Of a stretch of 64,000 nt of DNA, positions 9,452-23,092 are shown piece after piece. Under the pieces are notes generated by a model, which had not been told where the DNA came from, did no database searches, and saw only the letters and a list, made by a program, of their open reading frames with translations. Position numbers and translations under genes: made by a program. The DNA comes from Cyclobacterium sp. SYSU L10401 (GTDB lineage: Bacteria > Bacteroidota > Bacteroidia > Cytophagales > Cyclobacteriaceae): NCBI RefSeq assembly GCF_010993705.1, contig NZ_WOFO01000002.1, forward strand, positions 248,001 to 312,000, in the 5' to 3' direction. Positions within the stretch are counted from its first letter, which is position 1, and each line of letters begins with the position of its first letter.

Positions 9452-10810
9452 ATGACACTTCTAAACAAAAAAGCAACTACCATCAAGCTGTTTGACTTCA
9501 AATCCCCGCAGATGCGGGCATTTCACCTGTCCTGGTTTGCCTTTTTCCTTTGTTTTTTCGGCTGGTTTGGCATTGCTCCATTGATGGCCGTCGTCCGGGA
9601 AGAATTGGATTTGACCAAATCACAGATTGGTAATATCATCATTGCATCCGTAGCGGTAACCGTACTGGCCAGGTTATTTATCGGCTGGCTGGTAGACCGC
9701 ATCGGTCCACGCATTACTTATACCTACCTGCTGATCCTGGGATCTTTGCCTGTTATTCTGATAGGATTAAGCGACAGTTACGAAACTTTTTTATTGTTCA
9801 GGCTGGCCATTGGGATCATAGGGGCATCTTTTGTGATCACCCAGTACCACACTTCCGTGATGTTTGCTCCCAATGTGGTAGGGACTGCCAACGCCACCTC
9901 AGCGGGATGGGGAAATATGGGGGGCGGGGTCACCCAAATGGTCATGCCGATCATTTTTACCCTATTCATTTCATTGGGGTTTCTTGAAGGGGAAGCCTGG
10001 AGATATGCCATGATGGTACCAGGTATTGCCATGATCTTGACGGGTATTGCCTATTACCATTGGACAACAGATTTTCCGGAGGGGAACATCAAGGATTTCA
10101 GCAAAAAGGACCTGGAATATAAAAGAAGGAAAAAGGCTGATGGAAAAGGCGCCCTGAAATCTGCCTTATCCGACAGACGTGTATGGGCATTGTTCCTGAT
10201 CTATGGCGCTTGTTTCGGAATAGAACTCACCATCAACAATATTGCAGCCATCTATTACCATGACTTCTTCCAGCTGGACTTAAAAACTGCAGGTTTAATT
10301 GCAGGTTTGTTCGGGGTAATGAATCTTTTTGCAAGGACGCTGGGTGGTTTTTTCGGTGACAAAGCCGGTATCAGATGGGGTCTGAAGGGCAGGGTTGGAT
10401 TTTTGGGTGTGGTATTACTGGTAGAAGGTATCGCTCTCATTTTATTTTCCCAAATGACCTTGTTATCCCTGGCAATAGGTACCATGATTCTTTTTAGCCT
10501 ATTTGTCCAAATGGCTGAAGGAGCCACTTTTTCTGTGGTACCCTTTGTCAATAAGAAAGCCATAGGAATGATTTCAGGAATCGTGGGAGCAGGAGGAAAC
10601 GTAGGAGCGGTGATGGCCGGAGTTCTCTTGAAAATGGAAGGGATAAGCTATAGTGATGCCCTGTCCATCCTGGGGATTACGGTGGCCGCTATCAGTGCTT
10701 CCTCACTTTTAATCAGGTTTTCAAAAGTAGATGAAAAGGTAGCTCAGGAAGAGCTGCAAGCCTCTTTGGACCAAAAGGCTGCCTTACAACCGGAAATGGT
10801 CAACAGTTAA
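9452..10810 (+). CDS. narK: Nitrate/nitrite transporter, MFS NarK/NasA type
   Basis: This 452-residue inner-membrane protein with about 12 helices imports nitrate for assimilation. It has the MFS loop motif after helix 2 (GWLVDRIGPRITY). The glycine-rich nitrate signature appears in helix 5 as GWGNMGGGVTQMVMP and in helix 11 as GAGGNVGAVMAGVLL. Those two signatures define the nitrate/nitrite porter family. It is the first gene of the operon, 25 bp upstream of the nitrate reductase gene. The upstream control region with NarL-like boxes suggests induction by nitrate. Confidence 0.93.
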   Translation: MTLLNKKATTIKLFDFKSPQMRAFHLSWFAFFLCFFGWFGIAPLMAVVREELDLTKSQIGNIIIASVAVTVLARLFIGWLVDRIGPRITYTYLLILGSLPVILIGLSDSYETFLLFRLAIGIIGASFVITQYHTSVMFAPNVVGTANATSAGWGNMGGGVTQMVMPIIFTLFISLGFLEGEAWRYAMMVPGIAMILTGIAYYHWTTDFPEGNIKDFSKKDLEYKRRKKADGKGALKSALSDRRVWALFLIYGACFGIELTINNIAAIYYHDFFQLDLKTAGLIAGLFGVMNLFARTLGGFFGDKAGIRWGLKGRVGFLGVVLLVEGIALILFSQMTLLSLAIGTMILFSLFVQMAEGATFSVVPFVNKKAIGMISGIVGAGGNVGAVMAGVLLKMEGISYSDALSILGITVAAISASSLLIRFSKVDEKVAQEELQASLDQKAALQPEMVNS

Positions 10811-14518: not shown

Positions 14519-15949
14519 ATGCAAAAAGAAGATTTAGTCAGGGTTTTTGTGAAAGGAGGAATCATTTCTCCCGGAGACTTCCTGAAAATGATCCTAACAG
14601 CCAATGAACTTGGTGCCGGATACATTCACCTGGGCTCCAGGCAGGATGTTCTCTTTCCCCTTAAAAACAAGAACCTGGAAACCCTTTCCCGTACGTTTCA
14701 GGCCATCGATACTGCATACGATACAGATGGGGAAGAATTCCAAAATATCGTTTCCTCCTACCCTGCCCTTGACGTGATGCCTACCACCCACTGGTTGGCA
14801 TCTCACACCTATCATTATATCCTGGACACCTTTGATTACAGGCCAAAACTTAAAATCAATATCACAGATCCGGTCCAAAACCTGGTCCCACTTTTTACCG
14901 GCAACATCAATTTTGTGGCATCGTCAATTGACAATTACTGGTACCTGTACCTGAGATTTTCAGAAATTAGCCCTAAGCCCTGGGCAGCTCCAGACCTGAT
15001 CTACGGCTATGACCTGGCCAAAATTGCCAAAGAAATAGAAGCAATCAACCCGGTAAAAAGTGGATGGAAATACGAAGAAATCTACCAAAAAGTCAAAACT
15101 TCCCTGTCCCCCAATAGTCTAAAAGTCGAACATGAACTGGACTATCCGGAATCTAATTCCCCCTATTACGAAGGCATGAATCGCATTGTCGGAGGTAAGT
15201 ATTGGCTGGGACTTTACTGGCGAAACAACAAGTTTACCATTAACTTTCTTAAAGCGCTTTGCCAACTTTGTGTGGCCACAAATATTGGTAAGATATGCCT
15301 CACACCCTGGAAATCCATCATCATTAAGGGAATAGCTGAAAAAGACCGTTTAAGTTGGGAAAAGCTATTGGGTAAGTTTGGCATAAATATCCGGCATAGT
15401 TCCCTGGAACTCAACTGGCATTTGCCCGTAATGGATGAAGAAGCCCTTGGAATAAAAAATTACCTGGTAAGGGCTTTGGACAAACAGGATATCAGTACCT
15501 ATGGATTGAGCTTTTCCGTCAAGACCAGACACATGGCCTTATTTACTTCAGTGGCCATAGAAAAAGCAAAAAAAAACAGGCCAGATGATCCGGATGCGTT
15601 CAATATCTTGTACTCGAAAGATTTCAATCCCAACCTTTCTGAGTATTTTTACTTTGTGAAAAATGTACCCATAGAAACATTGCCACCCTTATTGATCGAA
15701 TTGAGTTATAAATACTACGACCAATTGGAAGTTCCCAAGTCTCCTGAATCCACTGACGACAAGCCCGTCGCCCATAGAAAGCACCTAAGGAAATACCAAT
15801 GTGAAAGTTGCCTTACCGTTTATGATGAAAAATACGGTGACCCTGCATCAGATATACTGCCCGGAACCTCATTTTTGAAACTTCCTGACAGCTATATTTG
15901 TCCCCTTTGTGAAAACCCAAAATCGGCATTTAAGCGAATCGATCAATAA
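14519..15949 (+). CDS. Nitrite/sulfite reductase-like protein without cluster cysteines, fused to rubredoxin
   Basis: This 476-residue protein has two parts. Residues about 5-400 resemble two ferredoxin-like half repeats and the linking regions of nitrite/sulfite reductases (GAGYIHLGSRQDVLF near 33; IGKICLTPWKSIIIKGI near 256). Where those enzymes carry GC-x-NC for the [4Fe-4S]-sirohaem centre, this one reads KLKINITDPVQNL (110-122), so it cannot bind that centre. The only cysteines before the tail are 248, 251 and 260. The tail is a complete rubredoxin (Cys428, Cys431, Cys461, Cys464; classical spacing). It follows the nitrate reductase gene after 167 bp. A role as electron donor or adaptor for nitrate or nitrite reductase is inference. 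Confidence 0.75.
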   Translation: MQKEDLVRVFVKGGIISPGDFLKMILTANELGAGYIHLGSRQDVLFPLKNKNLETLSRTFQAIDTAYDTDGEEFQNIVSSYPALDVMPTTHWLASHTYHYILDTFDYRPKLKINITDPVQNLVPLFTGNINFVASSIDNYWYLYLRFSEISPKPWAAPDLIYGYDLAKIAKEIEAINPVKSGWKYEEIYQKVKTSLSPNSLKVEHELDYPESNSPYYEGMNRIVGGKYWLGLYWRNNKFTINFLKALCQLCVATNIGKICLTPWKSIIIKGIAEKDRLSWEKLLGKFGINIRHSSLELNWHLPVMDEEALGIKNYLVRALDKQDISTYGLSFSVKTRHMALFTSVAIEKAKKNRPDDPDAFNILYSKDFNPNLSEYFYFVKNVPIETLPPLLIELSYKYYDQLEVPKSPESTDDKPVAHRKHLRKYQCESCLTVYDEKYGDPASDILPGTSFLKLPDSYICPLCENPKSAFKRIDQ

Positions 15950-16173: not shown

Positions 16174-16566
16174 ATGAAACTCAGGATCAATAACAATTCC
16201 ATCCGGCTCAGGTTGAGCCAGTCAGAAGTGGATACCATCGGACAGGGCTTACAGCTCTGTCAGGAGCTTCACCTGGGCAATAAACAGGTTTTTTCTTATA
16301 AACTGATTCCCTGTGATGCCGCTGATTTTCCCAAGGCTTCCTTTATCGCACAAAAGCTGGAAGTACGGCTTCCTGCCCATCGTGCTACTGCCTGGGCGCA
16401 AACCGATGAAGTCAGCTTACGTCATGTTCAGGATGAAGGTACTGATCTGGCTTGTACGATCCTGGTAGAAAAAGATTTTCAATGCCTGCACCAAAGGCCT
16501 GGTGAAGACGAAAGCGACAACTTTCCAAACCCCAACTCTTTGGAGGATGATCAAGATTTTGGATAA
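16174..16566 (+). CDS. Small conserved-looking protein of the nitrate island (DUF7009-like)
   Basis: This 130-residue soluble protein has no signal peptide or membrane segment. It begins MKLRINNNSIRLRLSQSEVD, which is how I recall a Bacteroidota family of unknown function (DUF7009), and ends in an acidic tail (DESDNFPNPNSLEDDQDFG). No cofactor motif is evident; its three cysteines are scattered. It lies between the rubredoxin fusion and the convergent sirohaem methyltransferase gene (20 bp apart). Position implies a role in nitrate or nitrite reduction, such as a maturation or assembly factor, but nothing in the sequence proves this. The family name is low certainty. Confidence 0.7.
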   Translation: MKLRINNNSIRLRLSQSEVDTIGQGLQLCQELHLGNKQVFSYKLIPCDAADFPKASFIAQKLEVRLPAHRATAWAQTDEVSLRHVQDEGTDLACTILVEKDFQCLHQRPGEDESDNFPNPNSLEDDQDFG

Positions 16567-16586: not shown

Positions 16587-17351
16587 TCATTTAACCCAAT
16601 TTATTTCCTTTTGTACCTTTTTCATCAGTTCCCTTTCCCTGACCACCTTTCCAATAAGGATAATGGCCGGAGCACCAAGCCCTGCTTCTTCCTGCAGGGA
16701 AAGAATAGTACTTAAATCTCCTGTGATAGACCGTTCATTGGTTTTACTTCCATTTTGAATCAGGGAAATGGGTTCATCCTCACCCCGGTACTTTTTAAAT
16801 ATTCCTACGATTTCAGGAAGTTTCTTTAATCCCATAAGGACCACCACCGTAGCCGAGGATTGAGCGGCAAAATACAGGTCCTTTCCTGTACTCTGGTCTT
16901 TCAATGTGCCTGTCACTACCCAAAAACTTTCGTTTATACCCCGCTTGGTCAAGGGAATGCCACCTAGGCCAGGAACGGCCATGGCACTGCTGATTCCAGG
17001 AACATACGTGGTGGGAATCCCATGCTTATGGGCGTATTCCAACTCCTCATGACCCCGGCCAAATACGTAAGGATCACCTCCCTTGAGCCTGACTACATGG
17101 CCAAAGGTGGACGCATAATTGATGATCATGCGGTTGATCTCCTTTTGCTGTCGGAAATGCATCCCGGCACTTTTCCCTACGTAAATCTTGAGAGAAGTCT
17201 GAGGCGCATACTCCAATAATGCCTCATTGGCCAGGGCATCATAAAGAACGACATCAGCACTTTCCAGTGCTTTAATCGCTTTCAATGTAATCAAATCAGG
17301 GTCTCCGGGCCCCGCCCCGACCAGGGTTAATCTTGCTTCCACGTCTTTCAT
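16587..17351 (-). CDS. cobA: Uroporphyrinogen-III C-methyltransferase (SUMT) for sirohaem
   Basis: This 254-residue enzyme transfers two methyl groups from S-adenosylmethionine to uroporphyrinogen III to give precorrin-2, the precursor of the sirohaem needed by NirB. The N-terminal signature TLVGAGPGDPDLITLKA and the second signature VVRLKGGDPYVFGRG are both intact, as is YVPGISSAMAVPGLGGIP. The length is that of a stand-alone SUMT; no dehydrogenase/chelatase domain is fused. It is transcribed divergently from nirB across a 162-bp region full of NarL-like boxes, so it is likely co-regulated with nitrite reduction. Confidence 0.93.
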   Translation of the reverse strand: MKDVEARLTLVGAGPGDPDLITLKAIKALESADVVLYDALANEALLEYAPQTSLKIYVGKSAGMHFRQQKEINRMIINYASTFGHVVRLKGGDPYVFGRGHEELEYAHKHGIPTTYVPGISSAMAVPGLGGIPLTKRGINESFWVVTGTLKDQSTGKDLYFAAQSSATVVVLMGLKKLPEIVGIFKKYRGEDEPISLIQNGSKTNERSITGDLSTILSLQEEAGLGAPAIILIGKVVRERELMKKVQKEINWVK

Positions 17352-17513: not shown

Positions 17514-20009
17514 ATGACAAGGATAATAGTAATAGGAAACGGGATGGTAGGCTACAAGTTTTGCGAGAAACTGTTAGCTGCCTCTTCCCATGGGGACTTT
17601 CAAATCACGGTATTCGGAGAAGAACCATGGCCGGCTTACGACAGGGTTCATTTAAGTACCTATTTTTCCGGGTCCAAGGTAGATGACTTGAGTATGGCTC
17701 CTCGCACCTGGTATCAGGAAAAGGGGATTGAGCTGCGGACCAATGAACTCATTGTAGCCATCGACCGGGAACAAAAAAAGGTGATCAGCCATTCGGGTAC
17801 AGCCAGGCACTATGACAAGCTGGTGCTGGCCACAGGTTCGGCTGCATTTGTCCCTCCCATCAGAGGTGTAGAAAAGAAGGGGGTTTTCGTATACCGGACC
17901 ATTGAAGACCTGGATGCTATTATGGCCTTTGGAAAAACGGCCAGATCTGCGGCAGTTATTGGAGGAGGTCTACTTGGACTGGAAGCAGCCAAAGCCGTCA
18001 TGGACATGGGACTAGACACCCATGTTATTGAATTTACCCCAAAATTAATGCCGCGGCAATTGGATGAGGCCGGTTCTGCCATCCTGAAATCAAAACTGGA
18101 GGACCTGGGCATTTCCATCCACCTGAGCAAAAATACGACAACAATCCATGGAAACGGAAAACTTACCGGTCTGGAATTTGCGGACGGATCCGATTTATCC
18201 GTAGACATGCTGGTCATTTCTGCCGGCATCAAACCCCGTGATGAGCTGGCCAAAACCTGTGGATTGTCCACCGCTCCCCGTGGTGGAATCATCGTCAACG
18301 AATCTCTTCAAACCGAAGATGATCCCGACATTTTTGCCATTGGAGAGGCGGCCTCCTGTCAAAACATGATATATGGTCTGGTAGCTCCGGGTTATGAAAT
18401 GGCCAGCCAGGTAGTCAACCAGCTTTGTGGTAAAGCATCCAAACCATTCCTGGGTTTTGACATGTCTACCAAACTGAAACTTCTAGGCGTGGATGTGGCC
18501 AGCTTCGGCGATCCTTTCGGAGAAACCGAATCCACCAAAGCCATCGTTTATGAAAACAAAAATTCCGGCATATACAAAAGAATCAATGTCTCAAAAGATG
18601 GTAAACGACTTTTAGGTGGCCTGTTGGTGGGAGATGCAACAGCCTACGGCATGCTGTTGCAAATGACCCAAAACCAGCTGCCCTTGCCTCCAAAGCCGGA
18701 AGACCTGATCCTTGGCAACAGGGATGGGCAAGCCACTGAGGGAGCAGGGTTCAAAAGCCTTCCTGCCGAGGTGCAAATATGCTCTTGCGAAAACGTCACC
18801 AAAGGAGATATCTGTCAACTTATCGAAAACGAGGGTCTTGGCAGTTTGGACGAAATCAAGTCCTGCTGTAAAGCCGGAACAGGTTGTGGTGGCTGTGTTC
18901 CAATGGTCAATGATTTGCTTAAACACCAACTCAAAGCCCTTGGAAAGCAGGTCAAAAATAACCTTTGTGAACATTTTGATTATTCCCGTCAGGAACTTAT
19001 GGATTTGGTAAAAATAAAAGACATCCGAAGCTACGATGAACTGATAGATCAATTTGGAAAAGGAGACGGCTGCGAGATATGCAAACCTGCGGTTGCATCC
19101 ATCCTTGCCAGTACCTGGAACGAATTGATTACCAGGCAGGACACCATCCAGGACACCAATGACCGGTACCTGGCCAATATTCAAAAAGGCGGCACCTATT
19201 CTGTAGTGCCCAGGATACCCGGAGGAGAGATCACACCGGAAAAACTGATCGTCATTGGTCAGGTAGCCAAAAAATACGGCCTATACACCAAAGTTACCGG
19301 TGGACAACGGATAGACATGTTTGGTGCAAGGGTGGACCAGCTTCCTGACATTTGGGAGGAGCTGATCGATGCCGGATTTGAAAGTGGTCATGCCTATGGC
19401 AAATCGCTGAGAACGGTAAAAAGCTGTGTGGGATCTACCTGGTGCCGCTACGGTGTACAGGATGCAGTTTCTTTCGCCATTCAGGTAGAAGAAAGGTACC
19501 GGGGTCTGCGATCTCCCCACAAATTAAAGGGGGCTGTATCCGGTTGTATTCGAGAATGTGCCGAAGCCCAAAGCAAGGACTTTGGCCTTATCGCCACGGA
19601 GAAAGGCTGGAACCTTTATGTCTGTGGCAATGGGGGTTCCAAACCTCAACATGCCCAACTCCTTGTCAATGATGTAGATAGGGAAACTGTTTTGAAATAC
19701 ATCGACCGCTTTCTGATGTTTTATATCCGGACCGCAGAACCATTGAACAGAACGGCCACCTGGCTGAACAAACTGGAAGGGGGGGTGGATTATCTTCGTG
19801 ATGTGGTGGTGAATGACACACTGGGAATTGGGGAAACATTGGAAAAAGAGATGGAATTTATGATACAAACTTATGCCTGCGAATGGAAGGAAGTAGTCAA
19901 TAATCCCCAACTCAGAGCCAAATTCAAACATTTCGTTAACGATGACGGTGGAGACCCTTCCGTAGCCTTTCAGGAAATGCGTGGGCAAAAAATCCCGGCA
20001 TCCTGGTGA
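17514..20009 (+). CDS. nirB: Nitrite reductase [NAD(P)H] large subunit NirB
   Basis: This 831-residue cytoplasmic enzyme reduces nitrite to ammonium. Residues 1-300 form the FAD/NAD oxidoreductase (RIIVIGNGMVGYKFCEKLL; AAVIGGGLLGLEAAKAV). A BFD [2Fe-2S] domain has Cys423, Cys425, Cys458 and Cys461, and a second BFD-like region around residues 482-530 ends in GDGCEICKP. The sirohaem part has the half-domain GGQRIDMFGARVDQLPDIW and the cluster ligands Cys638, Cys644, Cys678 and Cys682. The length is normal for the family. The NirD gene follows after 51 bp. The promoter region carries NarL-like boxes. Confidence 0.95.
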   Translation: MTRIIVIGNGMVGYKFCEKLLAASSHGDFQITVFGEEPWPAYDRVHLSTYFSGSKVDDLSMAPRTWYQEKGIELRTNELIVAIDREQKKVISHSGTARHYDKLVLATGSAAFVPPIRGVEKKGVFVYRTIEDLDAIMAFGKTARSAAVIGGGLLGLEAAKAVMDMGLDTHVIEFTPKLMPRQLDEAGSAILKSKLEDLGISIHLSKNTTTIHGNGKLTGLEFADGSDLSVDMLVISAGIKPRDELAKTCGLSTAPRGGIIVNESLQTEDDPDIFAIGEAASCQNMIYGLVAPGYEMASQVVNQLCGKASKPFLGFDMSTKLKLLGVDVASFGDPFGETESTKAIVYENKNSGIYKRINVSKDGKRLLGGLLVGDATAYGMLLQMTQNQLPLPPKPEDLILGNRDGQATEGAGFKSLPAEVQICSCENVTKGDICQLIENEGLGSLDEIKSCCKAGTGCGGCVPMVNDLLKHQLKALGKQVKNNLCEHFDYSRQELMDLVKIKDIRSYDELIDQFGKGDGCEICKPAVASILASTWNELITRQDTIQDTNDRYLANIQKGGTYSVVPRIPGGEITPEKLIVIGQVAKKYGLYTKVTGGQRIDMFGARVDQLPDIWEELIDAGFESGHAYGKSLRTVKSCVGSTWCRYGVQDAVSFAIQVEERYRGLRSPHKLKGAVSGCIRECAEAQSKDFGLIATEKGWNLYVCGNGGSKPQHAQLLVNDVDRETVLKYIDRFLMFYIRTAEPLNRTATWLNKLEGGVDYLRDVVVNDTLGIGETLEKEMEFMIQTYACEWKEVVNNPQLRAKFKHFVNDDGGDPSVAFQEMRGQKIPASW

Positions 20010-20060: not shown

Positions 20061-20438
20061 ATGTCAGCAAATTTGGAAAAATACCAAACGGCAGCTACGT
20101 CCCGGATCACTACCTGGTTTAAAGCTGCCCCTGTAAGCGCACTTCCGGAAAACGGAGGTGCCTGTATCAAATACAAAGACCTGCAAATTGCCATTTACAA
20201 ATTCAGCCGAAGGAATGAATGGTATGCCTGTCAGAACCTGTGCCCCCACAAGATGCAAATGGCATTGTCCCGGGGGATGATTGGTTCTCAAGGAGACGAA
20301 CCCAAAGTAGCCTGTCCCTTTCATAAAAAAACCTTTTCCCTGAAATCGGGAAAAAACCTCAATGGAGATACCTGTAGCATAGACACCTACCCTGTCAAGG
20401 TGGAGGACGGTTTTGTGTACGTAGGCTTCGAGGATTGA
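20061..20438 (+). CDS. nirD: Nitrite reductase small subunit NirD, Rieske type
   Basis: This 125-residue partner subunit of NirB has a Rieske fold. A full pair of Rieske motifs is present, CPH in NLCPHKMQ and CPFH in VACPFHKKTF, so it can bind a [2Fe-2S] cluster, whereas some enterobacterial NirD proteins have lost ligands. The C-terminal strand TYPVKVEDGFVYVGF is typical. It is the last gene of the nirBD unit and is followed within 30 bp by a clear intrinsic terminator. Confidence 0.93.
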   Translation: MSANLEKYQTAATSRITTWFKAAPVSALPENGGACIKYKDLQIAIYKFSRRNEWYACQNLCPHKMQMALSRGMIGSQGDEPKVACPFHKKTFSLKSGKNLNGDTCSIDTYPVKVEDGFVYVGFED

Positions 20439-20569: not shown

Positions 20570-22393
20570 ATGGAAAATCAAAATTTATCCGAAAAACCAA
20601 CATTTGAAAAACTGGGCAGGTATTACCTGGTAGCCCTTTGTGCCATCGCCATTAGCATCATCGTTAGTCAGGTTCTGGTTCAGAAGTTTATCAGTGAGCA
20701 AAAGAATGACTCCAGAGTAGTCAACCTTTCGGGCAGGCAACGCATGCTGAGTCAAAGGATAAGTAAATGTGCCCTTTTATTAAAGGACAGTAGTGCTAGT
20801 GCTTCCTCAGGAAGGGAGGCTATTTTGAAAGAACTTGACCTGGCGCTGCAGGAGTGGAATGAAACTCACCAGGCGCTGCAAACGGGAAATGATGCGTTGG
20901 AAATCAATGGTAAAAACAGCAAGAAAGTTGAAGCCCTGTTTCGGGACATCGAACCTGACCATCAGCTCATGGCCCAGGCTGCTTCAAACATAGTAAATAA
21001 GCTTCGGCAGGACATCAACCTTCCTGCAGAGCATTTAAGAAGCGATATCCAAACCATCATTACCAGGGAATCGGCATTTTTGAAAGGCATGGATCTCATT
21101 GTATTCCAATATGACCATGAAGCCAAGTCTAAAGTAATGAACCTGAGGAACATTGAATTATTCCTGTTGGTGATTTCATTGGGTGTCATTATTTTTGAAA
21201 TATTTTTCGTTTTCATTCCTTCGGCCAAAACCATCAGGCAAACTTTTATGAAGCTGCTCAGGTCACAGCAGAAATCAAAAAAGATGACCCTGGAATTGAG
21301 TGCCTTGTACAGTTCTCTGGAACAAGCCTATCAGGACCTACTCGAAGTAGATGTCAAAGTGGATGATTTCACCATTTATGCCAGGTGTGGAGCAGCAGGA
21401 GATTTCCGGGATTTTTCAGACCAATTTATTTCCCTGATGGAATTTGAAGCCTTTCGCCCCAAAAACCTGTTTGAATGGCTGCAAGATCAGGGATACGATG
21501 CGCAGTACCTGGAAAATATCAAAGGCATGGTTAATAGAGGTGATGCCTGGAATGGGGAAATAAAGGTAGTCAATGAAACCGGAGATTTTGTATGGCTAAA
21601 AGTGAATCTGATCCCAACTCAAAATGAATTGGGCCAAACAGATAGCATTCTTATGGTCAGCACTAACGAAACGGAGAAAAAGGAAGCAGAAGCCATTTCC
21701 CGGGAGATCAACAGGGAAAGGATAGAGAAAAAGGTAAAGGAGCAGCAATTCCGCTCAGCGCTGATATTGGAAGGGCAGGAAGAAGAAAGAAAGCGAATTT
21801 CCAGAGACATGCATGATGGCATTGGGCAGTTGCTCTCGGGCATGAAGTTCAATTTGGAAGGGATCCATTCCGTCAGTTCAGATTTCGAAAAAGACAAACT
21901 GCAAACGGCGAAAGACCTGCTCAAAAACATCATCAGGGAAGTGCGGAGGATTTCCTTTAACCTTACTCCCAATGCCCTTTCAGATTACGGGATTGTTCCT
22001 GTACTGAATAAATTTGCCCGGGAAATTACCAAAATTTCGGACCTGGAAGTAGTATTTGAGAATAAAACAGGTTTTCTGAGCAGGCTGGAAGGAAAAGTAG
22101 AAAACAACCTTTACCGGATTTGTCAGGAAGCCGTAAACAATGCCATCAAGTATTCTGCAGCCAGGGAGGTGAAAATCACCCTCTCCCACAATTCACAGAC
22201 CCTGCATTTGGAAATTGAAGACAATGGAAAAGGCTTTGACATCAAAAAACTGGAAGATAAAGGCCACTTTTCTGCCTCAGGGCATGGATTATTCAACATC
22301 CGGGAAAGGGCCAATTTCATCAATGGCCAATGTGACATACGAACAGCACCGGGAAAAGGCACCAGTATCAGTATCAGTGTGCCCTTAGATTAA
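20570..22393 (+). CDS. Nitrate-sensing histidine kinase (PilJ/NarX-like sensor, PAS, HisKA_3)
   Basis: This 607-residue inner-membrane kinase has helix 1 at residues 18-41, a periplasmic sensor to about 195 and helix 2 at about 200-222. The sensor opens with VVNLSGRQRMLSQRISK (50-66), which matches the type IV pilus PilJ-type N-terminal domain and resembles the P-box (nitrate-binding segment) of NarX/NarQ. A PAS-like domain covers about 270-375, followed by coiled coil. The dimerisation domain has the phosphoacceptor His415 in SRDMHDGIGQLLSG, and the HATPase domain carries N-box NLYRICQEAVNNAIKY and IEDNGKGFD. Its partner regulator gene starts 18 bp downstream. Nitrate is the inferred ligand, from the motif and genomic setting. 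Confidence 0.88.
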   Translation: MENQNLSEKPTFEKLGRYYLVALCAIAISIIVSQVLVQKFISEQKNDSRVVNLSGRQRMLSQRISKCALLLKDSSASASSGREAILKELDLALQEWNETHQALQTGNDALEINGKNSKKVEALFRDIEPDHQLMAQAASNIVNKLRQDINLPAEHLRSDIQTIITRESAFLKGMDLIVFQYDHEAKSKVMNLRNIELFLLVISLGVIIFEIFFVFIPSAKTIRQTFMKLLRSQQKSKKMTLELSALYSSLEQAYQDLLEVDVKVDDFTIYARCGAAGDFRDFSDQFISLMEFEAFRPKNLFEWLQDQGYDAQYLENIKGMVNRGDAWNGEIKVVNETGDFVWLKVNLIPTQNELGQTDSILMVSTNETEKKEAEAISREINRERIEKKVKEQQFRSALILEGQEEERKRISRDMHDGIGQLLSGMKFNLEGIHSVSSDFEKDKLQTAKDLLKNIIREVRRISFNLTPNALSDYGIVPVLNKFAREITKISDLEVVFENKTGFLSRLEGKVENNLYRICQEAVNNAIKYSAAREVKITLSHNSQTLHLEIEDNGKGFDIKKLEDKGHFSASGHGLFNIRERANFINGQCDIRTAPGKGTSISISVPLD

Positions 22394-22411
22394 CCGATTG
22401 AAAAAAGCATT

Positions 22412-23092
22412 ATGGAAAAAATAAAAGTAGTTTTAGCTGATGACCACGTGGTCGTACGAAACGGCATCAAAAATCTATTGGAAAATGAAGGGGATATAAC
22501 AGTGGTCGGGGAAGCTTCCAATGGAGAGGAAGCCCTGGCAGCGGTTGAAAAACTCAAGCCGGACTTATTGATCATCGATATCCGGATGCCGGTTATGAAT
22601 GGATTGGAGGCCACAAAAATACTTTCCAAAAATCCGGGTTCCACCAGATCCCTGATCCTTTCCATGCACGATGATGAGGATTATATTCTGCAATCCGTCG
22701 ATAGTGGTGCTGCCGGCTACCTGCTCAAGGACACCAGTAAAGATGAGTTTCTTAAAGCCATCAAAACCATCCATCAGGGGGGAAAGTATTTTAGCGGGGA
22801 CATCAGTCAGGTTTTGGTCAACAGCTACCTGAATGTCAAAGACAGAAAAATCGTTCAACCGATGGGAACTGCCAAACGATACGAAATCACCAAACGGGAA
22901 AAACAAATACTTAGAATGATAGCAGATGGTATGGGCAACAAAGAAATCGCTGAACAATTGGGCAAAAGTATCCGGACCATTGAAACCCACCGGTTTAATA
23001 TCATGAAAAAACTCAAGGTCAGCAATGTGGTGGAGCTACTTAAAAAGATCGAGGAAGAACCTGGATTGAAAGATCATATCGAGAACGCCTAA
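22412..23092 (+). CDS. NarL/FixJ-type response regulator
   Basis: This 226-residue transcription regulator has a receiver domain at 1-120 with acidic pocket Asp10/Asp11 and phosphoacceptor Asp56 (IIDIRMPVMNG), then a LuxR-type helix-turn-helix at about 155-218 (TKREKQILRMIADGMGNKEI and SIRTIETHRFNIMKKL). It follows the HisKA_3 kinase gene after 18 bp, the standard pairing. It probably binds the TACGTAT boxes upstream of the transporter operon, of cobA/nirBD and of its own operon. It is convergent with the next gene (9 bp apart). Confidence 0.92.
   Translation: MEKIKVVLADDHVVVRNGIKNLLENEGDITVVGEASNGEEALAAVEKLKPDLLIIDIRMPVMNGLEATKILSKNPGSTRSLILSMHDDEDYILQSVDSGAAGYLLKDTSKDEFLKAIKTIHQGGKYFSGDISQVLVNSYLNVKDRKIVQPMGTAKRYEITKREKQILRMIADGMGNKEIAEQLGKSIRTIETHRFNIMKKLKVSNVVELLKKIEEEPGLKDHIENA

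Follow-up and report, generated by a model that had tools for sequence, protein, structure and literature searches.

A rubredoxin-bearing protein of sulfite reductase fold, devoid of the sirohaem cluster ligands, as a companion of the nitrate reductase NasA in Bacteroidota

The window analysed here, a stretch of 64,000 nucleotides (nt) of Cyclobacterium sp. SYSU L10401 (contig NZ_WOFO01000002.1, positions 248,001 to 312,000), contains at 14519-15949 on the forward strand an open reading frame (ORF), complete from ATG to stop, which encodes a protein of 476 amino acids (aa). This protein, for which SirRub is used as a working label and not as an established name, joins a body resembling sulfite reductase (SiR) to a C-terminal rubredoxin. 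It belongs to a gene cluster with the order major facilitator superfamily (MFS) transporter, NasA, SirRub, DUF7009 protein, CobA (opposite strand), NirB, NirD, PilJ-type histidine kinase and LuxR-type regulator. An earlier note had described a nitrite reductase-like protein within a nitrate operon, deprived of its cluster cysteines, supplied with a full rubredoxin and apparently turned from a catalytically dead paralogue into an electron-transfer adaptor. The operon setting agrees with the neighbouring NasA, NirB and NirD genes, and the results given below describe SirRub as a SiR-fold, rubredoxin-bearing companion of NasA, the building blocks of which are known and the combination new.

Pfam assigned residues 6-62 to the ferredoxin-like half domain of sulfite and nitrite reductases (PF03460, NIR_SIR_ferr, expect value E 6e-11) and residues 425-471 to the rubredoxin family (PF00301, E 7.8e-17), the latter over the whole profile (1-47 of 47), which confirmed that the rubredoxin is complete. 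NCBIfam added nothing except a weak, sub-threshold likeness to the CobG, CysI and NirA models; the PHROGs search with SirRub gave no match, and sequence searches of the PDB (the best 60 of 63 and the best 60 of 73 matches) reached SirRub through its rubredoxin region alone. Comparison of the family by hhalign with the SiR of the same genome and four NirA proteins of the phylum aligned residues 6-406 with a probability of 87.6% and E 3.5e-6; the same comparison with the NirB of the window gave no usable alignment (probability 3.3%).

Two AlphaFold models of SirRub were obtained, one from 18 sequences (predicted local distance difference test, pLDDT, 84.2) and the other from 84 sequences (pLDDT 89.5, predicted template modelling score 0.80). 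Alignment A1, used for AlphaFold, included 18 of 22 loci; alignment A3 had 87 rows, 9 of 93 having been omitted to thin close relatives and two plasmid loci added, and alignment A4 had 84 rows after omission of the two plasmid rows and of locus L123. In both models residues 1-406 resembled the SiR hemoprotein SiRHP of E. coli, plant nitrite reductase (NiR) and M. tuberculosis NirA (Z 24-29 over 371-398 residues, 11-16% identity). The best structural match of both was SiRHP (Z about 28, about 380 residues, 3.3-3.8 Å, 14-16% identity), followed by the plant enzymes and M. tuberculosis NirA with Z about 25 and by maize SiR with Z about 23. Residues 423-476 matched rubredoxins with Z 10-11 (0.7-1.3 Å in the best rows), and the Foldseek results were consistent with both sets of matches. 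The predicted models thus contain the SiR fold, composed of two ferredoxin-like half domains and two alpha/beta domains, and the sulfite/nitrite reductase layout attributed to the protein from its letters is found in residues 1-406 when the prediction is compared with sirohaem reductases. In the 84-sequence model a pLDDT below 50 at residues 407-420 predicts a disordered linker between body and rubredoxin.

The decisive departure from the sirohaem enzymes concerns the cluster. In SiR the CX3C element holds both the cluster and the sirohaem. The ligand motif of the sirohaem-[4Fe-4S] centre is CX5CXnCX3C, and assimilatory SiRs retain one such site, the other having been lost, as stated in the relevant part of PMC10229431. 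In a single MAFFT alignment, of low identity, of 11 family members with the SiR of the same genome and the four NirA proteins, the ligand columns C406, C412, C450 and C454 of that SiR were occupied in all 11 members by a gap, L, L/M and V/I, respectively, and a deletion of about 11 residues was seen in SirRub at the first cluster loop. The sirohaem/4Fe-4S domain PF01077, present in the NirB of the window with E 3.4e-23, was detected in none of 84 family members at E up to 0.01. Among 94 orthologous sequences the only cysteine columns of the second half kept in at least a fifth were 248, 251 and 260, all of them before the first ligand loop. The loss of the cluster ligands claimed in the earlier note is therefore upheld, at other positions than those proposed: the segment which had been expected to carry them, KLKINITDPVQNL (residues 110-122), was aligned with KFKISFSSSDEDT / KFNVAFDSGGVIT, which lie in the first half of the SiR and NirA proteins, where these proteins are likewise without cysteine, and hhalign placed it in the first half as well. 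This alignment ruled out KLKINITDPVQNL as the lost cluster site. Since the ligand cysteines and PF01077 are absent by sequence, SirRub is probably incapable of sirohaem-based six-electron reduction and would itself reduce neither nitrite nor sulfite. It should not be filed as a sirohaem reductase, because the cluster ligands, which define these enzymes, are missing.

The conservation of the family was evaluated on the window and 96 loci, which gave 94 distinct sequences. Eight residues were invariant in all 94 orthologues (R41, Q42, N76, S80, N114, D117, Q120 and E297), and orthologues with invariant residues across Bacteroidota ruled out a chance ORF or a pseudogene. Mean identity to the SirRub of the window amounted to 54% for residues 1-230, 63% for residues 231-404 and 10% for the linker (93 sequences each), and to 55% for the rubredoxin (92 sequences), so conservation within the protein is highest in the half from which the cluster has disappeared. 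The first cluster-binding loop is replaced there by the motif N-x2-HSS-x-ELNW, in which, besides the invariant E297, N290, H293 and W300 were found in 93 and N299 in 91 of the 94 sequences. The description as catalytically dead is supported, by sequence, for sirohaem chemistry only: the second half is not decaying, judging from its conservation, and a new function in it is possible because it combines the highest conservation with a nearly invariant new motif.

Such a function could consist in a rebuilt pocket, the former sirohaem site having become a putative ligand or cofactor site of a rubredoxin-fed enzyme or sensor, for example of nitrite or nitric oxide. Candidates for it are R41, N76, N114, D117 and Q120 together with N290, H293, E297, N299 and W300, perhaps also C248/C251, which lie on a predicted helix (residues 241-253) of the 84-sequence model. 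The anion-binding residues of SiRHP are presumably R83, R153, K215 and K217, in the numbering which we assume, and these positions are kept in part: R41, which aligns to the Arg of the SiR TTRQ motif and which we take to be an active-site residue there, occurs in 94/94 orthologues, K110 is K/R in 70/94 and K112 in 88/94, and the second Arg slot (Q75) is Gln in 76/94. The same conservation is, however, equally explained by a docking surface, the single pocket is putative, and the motif block 291-300 has a pLDDT of 67, the lowest confidence outside the linker in the 84-sequence model. A rebuilt site as the principal explanation of SirRub is thus regarded as quite unlikely.

The rubredoxin is conserved as well. 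Its four cysteines were found in all 93 members possessing the domain, and Pfam recognized a rubredoxin in 83 of 84 members, one being without a match; one of the 84 had a weak zinc-ribbon match. A PF00301 search of 59 related genomes gave 21 domains, one per genome, each within SirRub; it revealed no free rubredoxin in any of the 59 and no rubredoxin whatever in the 37 genomes without SirRub. In the genome of the window the SirRub rubredoxin is likewise the only one found. A general rubredoxin pool was ruled out in this way, no alternative rubredoxin having been found to serve, since every domain detected in the 59 relatives sits in SirRub. One genome of the phylum, G183, encodes an orthologue without the domain (locus L123, 273-1556, at a contig end), with an intact body 36% identical to SirRub and Phe at the position of W300; a stop follows the body and no rubredoxin lies downstream. 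Neither NirB nor NasA was found in the same genome, the best match to full-length NasA being 28% and confined to the FAD module. The gene may be a relic, or it may indicate that the body is useful by itself.

A scan of 84,980 species genomes showed 412 stretches encoding a SirRub relative, and the gene neighbourhood was counted in the best 80 of these 412, a set therefore biased toward close relatives; the nearest named relatives in it were from Cyclobacterium (up to 88% identity). Several loci are of the same species as the genomes given G numbers here, so the counts refer to sequences and not to independent lineages. In the NasA of the window, a single chain, the NADH/FAD, rubredoxin-reductase C-terminal and BFD [2Fe-2S] domains come after the molybdopterin and [4Fe-4S] domains. 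Its C-terminal module was encoded upstream of SirRub and on the same strand in 80/80 loci, the catalytic part being visible in 78, with two short contigs (L080 and L095) as exceptions. In a separate ORF parse, which covered 78 loci (all except L049 and L071), the immediate upstream gene belonged to the NasA family cluster in 77. Strands agreed in all 94 measurable of 96 loci, and the gap between nasA and the SirRub gene, with starts estimated from the alignment, ranged from -31 to 349 nt in 90 of the 94 (7 overlaps) and was 466, 574, 949 and 2423 nt in the other four, ORFs intervening in L046 and L122. The flanks of 10 kb contained the NirB sirohaem domain, on one side of the pair or the other, in at least 31/80 loci, some flanks being cut short by contig ends, and the pairing of nasA with SirRub was unchanged with NirB upstream, downstream or elsewhere. 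NasA is more likely the partner of SirRub than NirB, because its module is upstream in 80/80 loci compared with 31/80 for NirB in the flanks. The features of the cluster are collected in Table 1.

Table 1. Position of SirRub, its parts and the neighbouring genes in the window
Feature	Coordinates	Strand	Evidence
MFS transporter, presumably nitrate/nitrite	9452..10810	+	Pfam; near the pair in 51/80 loci; relative annotated as NarK family in the Spirosoma cluster
NasA, likely partner, 1171 aa	10836..14351	+	Pfam/NCBIfam; upstream, same strand, in 80/80 loci
SirRub (SiR-like/rubredoxin protein, 476 aa)	14519..15949	+	ORF; Pfam; orthologues; RefSeq product name
First ferredoxin-like half domain PF03460, residues 6-62	14534..14704	+	Pfam; R41, Q42 in 94/94 orthologues; alignment
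KLKINITDPVQNL, residues 110-122, first SiR half	14846..14884	+	Alignment with SiR of the same genome and NirA; N114, D117, Q120 invariant in 94/94
Second SiR half, residues 219-404; all four ligand cysteines absent	15173..15730	+	Alignment; PF01077 scan
C248-x-x-C251, predicted helix of second half	15260..15271	+	C248 in 84/94, C251 in 91/94 orthologues
Motif N290-x2-H293-S-S-x-E297-L-N299-W300, replacing the first cluster-binding loop	15386..15418	+	Conservation; alignment
VKTRHM, residues 334-339, close to the site of the lost CX3C	15518..15535	+	Alignment
Linker, residues 405-423, variable, predicted disordered	15731..15787	+	10% mean identity; pLDDT <50 at 407-420
Rubredoxin domain, residues 424-474, Fe ligands C428, C431, C461, C464	15788..15940	+	Pfam; four Cys in 93/93
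Uroporphyrinogen-III C-methyltransferase (CobA), sirohaem synthesis	16587..17351	-	Pfam TP_methylase; cobA annotated in the Hymenobacter and Spirosoma clusters
NirB, complete NADH-type nitrite reductase large subunit	17514..20009	+	NCBIfam, PF01077
NirD-type Rieske small subunit	20061..20438	+	Pfam Rieske_2

Directly behind SirRub the cluster encodes the DUF7009 protein (16174-16566; PF22668, 8.8e-34), relatives of which occur near the pair in 13/80 loci. The genes behind nirBD (20570-23092) specify a PilJ-type sensor histidine kinase, NarX-like by sequence reading, and a LuxR-type regulator, with relatives in 30/80 and 34/80 loci; the two may regulate the cluster in response to nitrate.

The distribution of the genes leads to a similar picture. 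A SirRub orthologue was present in 22 of the 59 related genomes, 21 of which encode a fused NasA; in the 22nd (G013) a NasA fragment lies at a contig edge, directly upstream of SirRub. All 21 relatives with fused NasA possess SirRub, and two genomes of the same genus (G005 and G010) have neither. Among 395 genomes of the phylum, full-length SirRub (E <1e-100) was found in 29, and 100 further genomes gave E 1e-14 or weaker, the matches listed being to the rubredoxin end. With a threshold of at least 994 bits and an ORF as long as that of a fused protein, close NasA was found in 28 of the 395, all with SirRub, the 29th SirRub genome being G183. NirB (at least 455 bits) occurred in exactly the same 28, as it did in the same 21 of the 59, so the co-occurrence check proposed at the outset shows both nasA and nirB tracking SirRub, and NirB is a genome-level companion of it. 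In genome G055 the SirRub, nasA and NirB genes are retained on three separate contigs, and hence their retention is not merely a by-product of linkage.

This distribution bears on the proposal that SirRub serves NirB, by delivering sirohaem, by channelling nitrite from NasA to NirB or by acting as pseudo-partner to the sirohaem domain of NirB. It derives further support from five genomes (G274, G108, G066, G211 and G235; loci L117-L121) which encode a NasA of fused length, 52-59% identical and with the FAD/BFD module, and in which the searches of the 395 genomes gave no SirRub and no NirB match. Each has in its nitrate cluster a NirA-type ORF of about 590-670 aa; four of these ORFs align with cluster cysteines and the fifth (L118) is a weak match inside a longer ORF. 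The five may share ancestry and were not counted as independent events. A role for NirB is also opposed by its presence in the flanks of only the loci counted above, by genomes in which it is distant or on another contig while NasA stays near SirRub (for example G040, G036 and G026), and by the apparent completeness of NirB and NirD alone. It is considered decidedly improbable. In the clusters L117 and L119 the NirA-type ORF is followed by flavodoxin-like and flavoprotein-reductase-like genes, and small globin-like genes are present, these names resulting from sequence reading.

With NasA as the likely partner, it is tentatively proposed, with a chance which we place somewhat short of even, that SirRub serves the NADH-type NasA of Bacteroidota as a dedicated accessory redox subunit. 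The FAD module of NasA contains the rubredoxin-reductase C-terminal domain PF18267 (7.5e-25), and we take the C-terminal FAD/[2Fe-2S] module to be a relative of the rubredoxin reductases; against the model of NorW (flavorubredoxin reductase) it scored 194 bits, under the cut-off, and higher (333 bits) with the NirB model. This module appears to be the likeliest redox partner of the rubredoxin. The SiR-like body would dock on NasA and the tethered rubredoxin would swing to the FAD/[2Fe-2S] module at its C-terminus, where it could take or give electrons and might ease their transfer, whether inside the NasA complex or to an acceptor beyond it. The role of electron-transfer adaptor suggested earlier is plausible. 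The accessory redox role is supported by G183, since this orthologue without rubredoxin comes from a genome without NasA.

Several observations weigh against the accessory redox role. The NasA polypeptide already holds a full chain of FAD, [2Fe-2S], [4Fe-4S] and molybdenum (Mo), and the PF18267 module is found in NirB also, so that there is no obvious missing link. The five genomes just described, with neither SirRub nor NirB, indicate that SirRub is not essential to the fused NasA architecture, and the identical distribution of NirB in the 28 genomes does not single out NasA. A mirror-tree analysis of 27 loci gave for SirRub a rho of 0.72 with NasA and 0.80 with NirB, and NasA is thus not favoured. 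In the orthologue of G046 (L122, 10469-11845) the rubredoxin is shortened, with CxxC...CxxC kept and the central part missing, and it is missed by the Pfam model. Rubredoxins elsewhere are, in the passages concerned, among the accessories of hydrogenase operons (HoxR/HupI, PMC2907700) or a regulatory domain (PknG, PMC10232911); because they also act in maturation and regulation, the domain alone is no proof of electron delivery.

A constant companion of nasA could instead be a maturation factor, the body holding apo-NasA during insertion of the Mo cofactor or clusters and the rubredoxin acting as a metal or redox switch. Genes of molybdenum cofactor type accompany the pair at some loci: in G051 SirRub overlaps nasA upstream and moaA downstream, with moaE and a mobA-like gene further on, and mobA-like and moeA-like families were near the pair in 15/78 and 8/78 parsed loci (one representative of each was checked). 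A chaperone of NarJ/TorD type (PF02613) was found in none of the 59 relatives, 5 of 14 control genomes being positive; this absence is not specific, however, because relatives without NasA are as negative as those with it. The five fused-NasA genomes which do without SirRub also speak against maturation, and we know of no chaperone of this kind with a SiR fold. HoxR/HupI act in hydrogenase assembly. Their position among the hydrogenase accessory genes (relevant part of PMC2907700) provides a precedent, and the rubredoxin is therefore no argument against maturation. In Paracoccus, NarJ matures NasC, and further chaperones for enzymes of NasC type are left to explore, according to the corresponding passage of PMC6618116. 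On balance a maturation factor, the strongest of the rival readings, is judged somewhat unlikely.

These elements can be combined into a SiR fold emptied of its sirohaem-[4Fe-4S] centre, rebuilt on a new site (NxxHSSxELNW with R41/N76/N114/D117/Q120) and provided with its own tethered rubredoxin, as an unrecognised redox or maturation component which Bacteroidota NasA of this type needs; taken as a whole this combination is unlikely. A full-text literature search of open-licence PMC papers found no description of SirRub, and the rubredoxin passages in the parts concerned of PMC4724949, PMC5264521, PMC6741124, PMC2907700, PMC6133358 and PMC10232911 deal with other proteins. A plasmid search gave 70 matching records, of which four covered at least 80% of the query (two of Persicobacter, one of Hymenobacter and one of Spirosoma); 16 other matches among those listed concerned the rubredoxin end alone. 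Two RefSeq plasmid records name SirRub orthologues 'rubredoxin', and in the records examined this name masks a conserved nitrate-assimilation component of many Bacteroidota. If NasA requires SirRub, accounts of the nitrate-assimilation potential of these bacteria have so far lacked one component, and SirRub would be a concrete candidate for the factor by which assimilatory nitrate reductases are matured or wired in species without NarJ. It also offers a case of a sirohaem enzyme fold reused once the cofactor site was lost.

Compared with known systems, SirRub shares with SiRHP (CysI), NirA and plant NiR the two-half fold, PF03460 being present in 84/84 members, as well as the first-half Arg and mostly the Lys of the anion site; unlike them it is without CX5CXnCX3C and PF01077 and has the deletion of about 11 residues, HSSxELNW and a rubredoxin. 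The latter is a complete Fe(Cys)4 domain like rubredoxin 1rdg (Z 10.9, 44% identity). The flavorubredoxin NorV and the class III hybrid cluster protein (7e0l) are similar in that a rubredoxin is fused to a body of a redox family, whereas SirRub has a SiR-like body in which no catalytic centre is known. The precorrin-3B synthase CobG is a relative with SiR fold which is not known to reduce sulfite or to contain a rubredoxin; its model (TIGR02435) matched the second half of SirRub with E 7e-07 and 28.5 bits, far below the cut-off of 234.8, and unlike CobG SirRub is linked to NasA. NasG, the ferredoxin of the Paracoccus NasBGC, is a small iron-sulfur carrier for an assimilatory-type nitrate reductase, and rubredoxin is reportedly the electron carrier of the Clostridium perfringens nitrate reductase, a report which our literature search did not find. 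In contrast to both, SirRub has its carrier covalently joined to a body of SiR fold, and an NADH/FAD module is already part of NasA. SirRub is unrelated to NarJ, no PF02613 match at E up to 0.001 being present in the whole genome of the window, SirRub included. NarJ acting on NasC, as in the relevant part of PMC6618116, which names NasBGC, is a possible functional analogue, as the helper of a cytoplasmic nitrate reductase. HoxR/HupI resemble SirRub as a rubredoxin encoded among the accessory genes of one metalloenzyme and differ from it, in the part of PMC2907700 concerned, as a small free rubredoxin of 66 aa with no SiR-fold body.

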